Shown: in pieces, positions 19,024 through 20,107 of the stretch
How the letters are laid out: the number at the start of each line of letters is the position of its first letter
Numbering within the stretch: the stretch's first letter is position 1
Virus record (IMG/VR): IMGVR_UViG_3300027782_000253
Coordinates: 1 to 30,783 of that record
Length of the DNA: 30,783 nucleotides
Source of the DNA: a virus
Strand: one strand, 5' to 3'
The notes under the pieces: generated by a model
What the model was told of the DNA's origin: nothing
Databases searched by the model: none
The model's input: only the letters and a program-made list of their open reading frames with translations
Position numbers and translations under genes: made by a program

Positions 19024-19100
19024 CTTCCGGGGGTGAGGTAAGGAGCGACCAAGGCCGCCCCGCCACATGGTGGCAGGTTTATGGTATCATATTTCCAGCG

Positions 19101-19199
19101 ATTCCCAACGTGGGAATAGCCGAGCGGCTGCAACTGCTCAAATTCTCGACAACTGTAGGTGGGGCGGGTCAGCCCGCAGCCGCTCCCCGCCCTACCTGC
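19101..19199 (+). ncRNA. Structured leader RNA with predicted pseudoknot
   Basis: Three pairings are visible. ATTCCCA/TGGGAAT form a perfect palindrome at 19101-19117. GTAGGTGGGGCGGG (19155-19168) pairs over 14 bases with CCCGCCCTACCTGC (19186-19199), including two G-U pairs. The 17-base loop of that hairpin contains GCAGCCGCTC (19176-19185), which is perfectly complementary over 10 bases to GAGCGGCTGC (19122-19131), giving a pseudoknot. The element ends 15 bases before the initiator ATG at 19215, over the expected ribosome-binding area. It matches no known riboswitch, ribozyme or tRNA that I can recognise. Confidence 0.45.
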
Positions 19200-19214
19200 G
19201 GCCTTGGTAAAGAC

Positions 19215-19616
19215 ATGGCACGACTACGACCATCCGACATCTGGGCAACCGTCCAAGACTTGAGCGCGGGGGAGCTGCTGGTCATCCTCGCCCTCGCCGA
19301 CTACGGCGAAGTGGCGTACCCTAGTCAGAAGAAACTGGCGGCGAAATGTCGCATGGCGCGGACGACCGTAAACACCATAATCAGCAACCTCCGCAATCGC
19401 GGAATCTTGACCACCAAAGGTACAGGGAAGTCTCTTACCTACACCATCCACCTGTCCGAAATCCGGACACCAACCTGTCCGAAATCCGGACATCAGATGT
19501 CTGAAATCCGGACAGGAGATGTCCGGAATCCGGACAGGGATCCTAACTCGTCCATTCAACTAACAAAACGAACTCGGAAAACGGCGGCGGAAAAACCTCG
19601 ACTAGTACCCTTTTGA
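19215..19616 (+). CDS. Winged-helix replication initiator (lambda O-like) with internal origin
   Basis: A 133-residue protein from ATG 19215; no strong ribosome binding site is visible because the upstream area is the structured leader. The N-terminal half is a winged helix: 'SAGELLVILALADYGEVAYP' then 'SQKKLAAKCRMARTTVNTI' near residues 37-55 and 'LRNRGILTTKG' after it. The segment near residues 80-107 is a low-complexity run with 'SEIRT' and 'CPKSGHQM', because it is encoded by four DNA iterons. Phage lambda O and many relatives have exactly this plan: the N-terminal wHTH binds the iterons inside its own gene. The C-terminus is short and basic. Its stop overlaps the next start as TTGA. Initiator function is inferred from the plan. 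Confidence 0.7.
   Translation: MARLRPSDIWATVQDLSAGELLVILALADYGEVAYPSQKKLAAKCRMARTTVNTIISNLRNRGILTTKGTGKSLTYTIHLSEIRTPTCPKSGHQMSEIRTGDVRNPDRDPNSSIQLTKRTRKTAAEKPRLVPF
19453..19536 (+). repeat. Four palindromic iterons, probable origin of replication
   Basis: Four 17-bp copies of TGTCCGGAATCCGGACA or close variants lie at 19453-19469, 19476-19492, 19498-19514 and 19520-19536. The last is a perfect palindrome (8-bp arms around one central A). The first two have one change and the third has two changes, all in the left arm. Starts are 23, 22 and 22 bases apart, so all sites face the same side of the helix. An A-rich stretch follows at about 19557-19596 and could be the unwinding region. Confidence 0.8.
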
Positions 19617-20107
19617 GCGAGCGGGATTTCAATATGCAAACGACAACATCAACAACGTGGATCGACAACAAGATTTATCTGTGCAAACTGTGGCCGAAGT
19701 ACAAGCCCACCCCGGAGGAGGGTGACCTCCTCAACGAACGCTGGGGACAACTCAAGCAGGACATCCTGCGCGAATGCATCAAGCAGCACCGCCTCGAACG
19801 CGACAGCCGCCCCGACTTGTCCGCCATTCACAAGGCGTACTGCAAGATCACCGCTACCGCCCACACCGCCGGGGTGGCGAGTACCGAGATCGAGGACACC
19901 CGCGCACAGACCTGCATTCCGCCGAGCGCGAGCGAGCTTGCAGAATGGGAGGCATGGGCAACAAAGACGCTCGCCACCGTGACCGATGCCGAGATCGAAG
20001 CCGTGCGCGAAATGATGACCTACGTCCCCACCACCGCCCGCGTCCTCGCCGTTGCCGTTGACTACGTTCGCTCGCAGCGGGGCAGGGTTGCCCCGAGACG
20101 CGCTTGA
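19613..20107 (+). CDS. Replication protein in the helicase-loader position
   Basis: A 164-residue protein. TTG 19613 overlaps the initiator stop as TTGA; ATG 19634 is an alternative start. The N-terminal half, 'LCKLWPKYKPTPEEGDLLNE' followed by 'RWGQLKQDILRECIKQHR', has the Trp-Pro and 'L...I......' helix spacing seen in small phage replisome organiser or loader proteins, which often read 'LWP.WKPT...'. A second helical part ends in 'LAVAVDYVRSQRGR'. It lacks a Walker motif, so it is not an ATPase loader. By position behind an O-like initiator it is the likely partner that brings in the host helicase. This is inference from context plus weak pattern. Confidence 0.45.
   Translation: MSERDFNMQTTTSTTWIDNKIYLCKLWPKYKPTPEEGDLLNERWGQLKQDILRECIKQHRLERDSRPDLSAIHKAYCKITATAHTAGVASTEIEDTRAQTCIPPSASELAEWEAWATKTLATVTDAEIEAVREMMTYVPTTARVLAVAVDYVRSQRGRVAPRRA

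Follow-up and report, generated by a model that had tools for sequence, protein, structure and literature searches.

To our knowledge, very few pseudoknots in phage mRNA leaders have known regulatory roles, and the leader of T4 gene 32 is the textbook case. In IncI/ColIb-P9 plasmids, repZ is controlled by an antisense RNA and a leader peptide, and the put RNAs of phage HK022, composed of two hairpins, are present at both early promoters. The gene 32 leaders of T4, T2 and RB69 fold, upstream of the ribosome site, into an H-type pseudoknot whose stems are coaxial, and the gene product, a single-stranded DNA-binding protein, binds first to this pseudoknot and then to an A+U-rich tract (PMC3014915). 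In the leader of the type I toxin gene timP, a 5' hairpin is mutually exclusive with a pseudoknot formed with a downstream stem-loop; the pseudoknot is the translated conformer, the Shine-Dalgarno (SD) sequence is hidden in a separate stem, and an antisense RNA is present (PMC11228461). The STAXI motif is a small pseudoknot found near genes for DNA-handling proteins, tandemly repeated two or three times and often with UUCG loops (PMC2864571).

The stretch of DNA analysed here, hereafter the window, comprises 30,783 nucleotides of a virus record in IMG/VR. On its plus strand, an H-type pseudoknot of about 80 bases (19122-19201), formed by the two helices S1 and S2, precedes a replication initiator gene. 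The leader (19098-19214) consists, in this order, of a 5' hairpin, the pseudoknot and the ribosome site, and is followed by the initiator at 19215. The features are as follows.

19085-19090, plus strand: predicted -10 box TATCAT, with an extended TG at 19082-19083
19098-19120, plus strand: optional 5' hairpin at the predicted transcript start
19122-19139, plus strand: local hairpin P0 (GAGCGG/CTGCTC), mutually exclusive with S1
19122-19131, plus strand: 5' strand of S1, GAGCGGCTGC
19132-19152, plus strand: linker L1, weakly conserved except for the 3' strand of P0
19153-19168, plus strand: 5' strand of S2
19169-19175, plus strand: loop L2, 3-7 nt across copies
19176-19185, plus strand: 3' strand of S1, GCAGCCGCTC, within the S2 loop and with zero spacing to S2
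19186-19201, plus strand: 3' strand of S2
19202-19214, plus strand: ribosome-binding stretch of 13 nt, outside all predicted helices
19215-19616, plus strand: O-like replication initiator of 133 aa (HTH_36)

The initial annotation of this leader had proposed a 10-base pairing between 19122-19131 and 19176-19185, and this pairing, S1, is exact at these coordinates. The 14-bp hairpin with a 17-base loop that it described corresponds to S2; the loop is indeed 17 nt, made up of the 7-nt L2 and the 10-nt 3' strand of S1, and the stem is slightly longer than claimed, with 16 pairs including G-U wobbles (19153-19168 with 19186-19201). Likewise, the 17-bp palindrome placed before it is a palindrome of 17 nt that forms a hairpin of 7 bp, which can be extended to about 10 positions (arms 19098-19107/19111-19120). 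The end assigned to the whole feature, 19199, does lie 15 nt before the ATG at 19215. When the leader was folded alone without pseudoknots, its stability corresponded to a z of -4.0, and none of 200 shuffled sequences was equally stable.

Concerning known classes, none had been recognised initially, and no match at the gathering score of Rfam 15 was found for the window or for any of five divergent loci. In a permissive Rfam search with the leader, the best hit was Ms_IGR-4 with 18.2 bits against a gathering score of 55 (E = 2.6). A search for tRNA and tmRNA gave none, and no description of the element was found in the open-licence literature. A self-cleaving ribozyme of HDV topology was considered and rejected, as there is no linker between the 3' strands of S1 and S2, where the catalytic residue would lie. 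A metabolite riboswitch is unlikely, the invariant unpaired nucleotides of a ligand core not being found.

Like the gene 32 leader of T4, the element is an H-type pseudoknot in the 5' leader of a phage replication gene, but the gene here encodes an initiator rather than a single-stranded DNA-binding protein, and no A+U-rich tract is seen. Binding of the leader by its own gene product is unlikely here, because the same RNA serves two unrelated proteins, as described below. The element shares with timP a 5' hairpin that is mutually exclusive with the pseudoknot, for which the evidence here is moderate, whereas SD sequestration in a leader stem and an antisense RNA were not seen. It differs from STAXI in being present in a single copy and in having no UUCG. 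A pseudoknot between a loop and a distant sequence ahead of a replication initiator recalls the repZ leader of IncI/ColIb-P9, without the antisense promoter signal. As with the put RNAs, a compact structured RNA would stand right at the beginning of an early phage transcript, but here with one copy per genome and tied to replication genes. In the best-supported reading, the element would work most like timP and T4 gene 32 while being a member of neither.

Copies of the element in uncultivated phages

An exact 18-mer scan of viral contigs gave 33 stretches, most of them with a complete element ahead of other start codons, and further pattern scans enlarged the set. Together with a scan based on the downstream protein, at least 34 distinct copies from uncultivated phages were found. 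A pseudoknot descriptor recognised 34 distinct elements in the fetched loci, compared to 3 matches in locally shuffled DNA amounting to half of the length searched. Many pattern matches proved on inspection to lack the fold and were dropped (L012, L025, L028, L032, L039, L044-L060, L062-L087, L089-L095, L100, L214, L235-L237 and L239). Each phage record with a clear match carried one copy.

As a control independent of the RNA, viral loci were fetched by alignment of the downstream DUF1376-type proteins (n=78). The element was present 60-200 nt ahead of the protein in 60 of these loci, and S1 was found by inspection to be paired in every leader having both strands. The remainder comprised L102, which ends at a contig edge, L156, whose S2 is truncated, and 16 distant DUF1376 proteins with an identity of at most 43%.

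Outside viral contigs, a pattern search of GTDB genomes gave one real match, on a 3.4-kb MAG contig (L088), whose element is the same as that of the phage L015. A covariance model searched against 396 genomes of the L088 phylum recovered only the seed, and against 274 genomes of another class it gave none, a result which, having no positive control, shows little. In phage and plasmid records, no similarity to the window or the element was seen other than one short chance match in a plasmid, and no named phage carrying the element was found; among named phages, the initiators and the terminase have no more than distant relatives.

The initial annotation had also considered a self-contained functional RNA. 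This is less likely, since the element abuts the ribosome site of an initiator or HNH gene in almost every copy. An exception is L020 (3151-3234, minus strand), a complete element with a bulged S2, behind which lie several hundred bases that appear non-coding, in place of an initiator gene.

Covariation and the selected strand

An alignment of 26 distinct sequences, from which the divergent L155, L122 and L157 were left out, was used to examine covariation. S1 was paired in 100% of cells, with 4 of its 10 columns covarying and 19 compensatory cells, a number reached in none of 500 shuffles. In S2, 7 of 15 pairs had changed on both sides. Overall, 44 compensatory cells were counted against 12.5 in shuffles (0/500), although the copies are phylogenetically related, so that these counts are not independent events and the shuffle comparison overstates independence. 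Controls in which the structure was slid along the alignment gave far lower pairing (43-53%). The three divergent leaders also keep S1, in each case as a longer, changed helix: GAGGCTTGCGGC/GCCGCAAGCCTC in L155, GAGCGGCTTGGC/GCCAAGCCGCTC in L122 and GAGCGGTTTGGC/GCCAAACCGCTC in L157. The junction between the 3' strands of S1 and S2 has a length of 0 in 34 of 34 distinct copies. Invariant columns fall almost entirely within strands of S1, P0 or S2, which makes a ligand pocket unlikely.

As far as the aligned sequences tell, the fold is preserved by evolution while its letters change, even across a swap of the initiator, which marks it as a real, apparently undescribed RNA element. The structure is well supported: the compensatory changes in homologues that the initial annotation had set as a test are present, and its pseudoknotted leader ahead of the initiator stands on firmer ground than was claimed.

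P0, in which GAGCGG pairs with CTGCTC, uses the 5' strand of S1 and is kept in nearly all of 37 distinct copies. Its register is shifted in L145 (CGAGAG/CTCTCG) and its 3' strand is altered in L233. Because no double changes occur in the main alignment, the support for P0 is moderate and weaker than that for S1. The mean stability was about -22 kcal/mol for the S1 duplex and about -9 kcal/mol for the P0 hairpin, the pseudoknot penalty being left out.

We then considered which strand is under selection. Position-anchored counts over the first 11 pairs of S2 gave 337 Watson-Crick, 30 G-U, 1 A-C and 6 other cells; some bias is possible as the descriptor favoured G-U and allowed one mismatch, but among the protein-fetched loci it missed only the truncated L156. 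G-U far exceeding A-C points to the plus-strand RNA, the initiator's own leader, as the selected molecule, and to neither DNA nor an antisense RNA.

Predicted promoter and downstream genes

A -10-like hexamer is present upstream of the element in 34 of 34 distinct copies, and the best promoter scores averaged 8.9, compared to 2.2 in shuffled upstream sequences. Two spacings between the end of the -10 box and the element occur, 7-10 nt and 24-32 nt. With the longer distance, the gap is usually taken up by an additional hairpin, unrelated in sequence (by inspection in L097, L113, L122, L148, L155, L168 and L169); with the shorter, it is absent. The palindrome at 19098-19120 is such an optional 5' hairpin. 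These fixed distances place the element at the 5' end of the transcript, and in the window transcription is predicted to start at about 19097, upstream of position 19131 at the end of the first S1 strand, which passes the second test set by the initial annotation.

The element precedes two non-homologous families of replication-initiation proteins, O-like HTH_36 proteins and DUF1376 primosomal proteins. L182 and L206 have a terminase and portal 97-99% identical to those of the window, yet they carry a DUF1376 initiator, together with a compensated S1 variant (GAGCGAGTGC/GCACTCGCTC). Adjacency to the initiator is not obligatory: L036 and, by inspection, L228/L240 have an HNH endonuclease gene that separates the leader from the initiator. 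The leader of L180/L188 and their relatives is followed immediately by an HNH gene. The HNH genes after the leader are of at least two types, HNH/HNH_5 and HNH_3 with AP2 (L036 146-742; L188 7922-8518; L228/L240), and behind those adjacent to the leader the initiator is displaced or was not found.

Several further features of these genes were observed. Tandem palindromic repeats of TGTCCGAAATCCGGACA lie inside the O-like initiator gene of the window (19445-19540) and look like candidate initiator binding sites, which would make this an intragenic origin of the lambda-O type. In both unrelated families, short initiators often have a C-terminal ..PF (RLVPF, DPNWTPF, DSLPF), as in the window (19607-19616) and in L024, L041, L061, L107 and L160; this ending resembles the C-terminal tip of single-strand binding protein and is lacking in initiators of about 280-320 aa. 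In many of these phages the initiator is followed by a gene of an unknown family (19634-20107 in the window; 38-98% identity), which was not seen beside several long initiators and may encode a primosome partner.

Possible modes of action

We consider it probable that the element is a cis-acting leader whose mutually exclusive hairpin and pseudoknot states set expression of the replication initiator, a control that the initial annotation had raised and that is plausible. The element would form the 5' end of the initiator mRNA. Judging from the order of transcription, P0 would form first, and once the S2 hairpin has been transcribed, the 5' strand and loop of P0 would pair with the S2 loop, converting the leader to the far more stable pseudoknot of S1 and S2. 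We infer this folding order, as well as the direction of the effect and the participation of any trans-acting factor. Between the last helix and the start codon there are about 13-25 nt in most copies, and the ribosome site lies outside both folds, the P0 state and the pseudoknot. Sequestration of this site by L1 was rejected, as its own pairing was no stronger than in shuffled sequences. Since neither state hides the ribosome site and L1 is not paired with it, the sequence does not reveal the output of the switch. With the ribosome site left free, the element would most likely act on translation initiation and mRNA lifetime, the step affected in translation being ribosome docking or standby, so that the dose or timing of the initiator would be set after transcription has begun. 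Separately, L124, L126 and L157 have an extra hairpin, GTCCGCTACATGGCGGAC, between the element and the start codon; it includes an ATG, which is in frame with the gene in L126.

A more specific version of this control, which we put forward only tentatively, is a portable replication timer: an early hairpin would give way to the loop-loop pseudoknot once the leader is complete, and translation would be gated, by way of the ribosome or a host factor, whatever the initiator; phages could thereby swap initiators under the same RNA control. The transcript start is almost wholly structured, with an optional hairpin at its very 5' end, and could instead be a stabiliser that blocks an exonuclease or pyrophosphohydrolase and prolongs mRNA life with no switching. 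Such an effect would outlast the insertion of genes behind the leader. However, a simple hairpin would be enough for this, and the covarying pseudoknot, its zero-length junction and the retained P0 are left unexplained, so that we regard it as unlikely. Insertion of genes would equally be tolerated by a put-like antiterminator, in which RNA polymerase, bound by the nascent RNA where an operon begins, runs past later terminators, and the whole element is contained in the first 80-110 nt of its transcript, from which a long block of rightward genes may be expressed. This reading is somewhat less likely still: the element is tied to replication genes and was not found on the leftward operon, and a single plus-strand terminator-like site, no more than expected by chance, was found in the 11.6 kb downstream.

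The location beside initiator genes, and the repeats in the window's initiator gene that look like initiator sites, would suit a part of the replication origin, such as an R-loop, a fold in single-stranded DNA or a primer RNA. Selection on the minus strand or on folded DNA is disfavoured by the G-U excess, and the helices abut a ribosome site, making an origin part improbable; a primer RNA is still conceivable. The initial annotation had raised the possibility that the leader is the target of an antisense RNA controlling initiator synthesis, as in plasmid copy control, and the hairpin loop complementary to a second upstream hairpin does resemble IncI repZ leaders. Here, no antisense promoter signal was detected (mean score 1.6 compared to 3.1 in shuffles), and the excess of G-U over A-C leaves only the sense strand under structural selection, the fold of the antisense strand being without it; we therefore disfavour this proposal and consider it very improbable.

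The cis-acting leader with two exclusive states thus remains our preferred reading. The element apparently represents an RNA family of uncultivated metagenomic phages that had not been described; its covariation is strong, and its position at the predicted start of the replication-initiation transcript is fixed. One RNA over two unrelated initiator families separates the logic of the RNA from the protein controlled. The timing or the amount of replication-starter synthesis is probably set by the element, and control of the onset of phage replication becomes directly testable with reporters.
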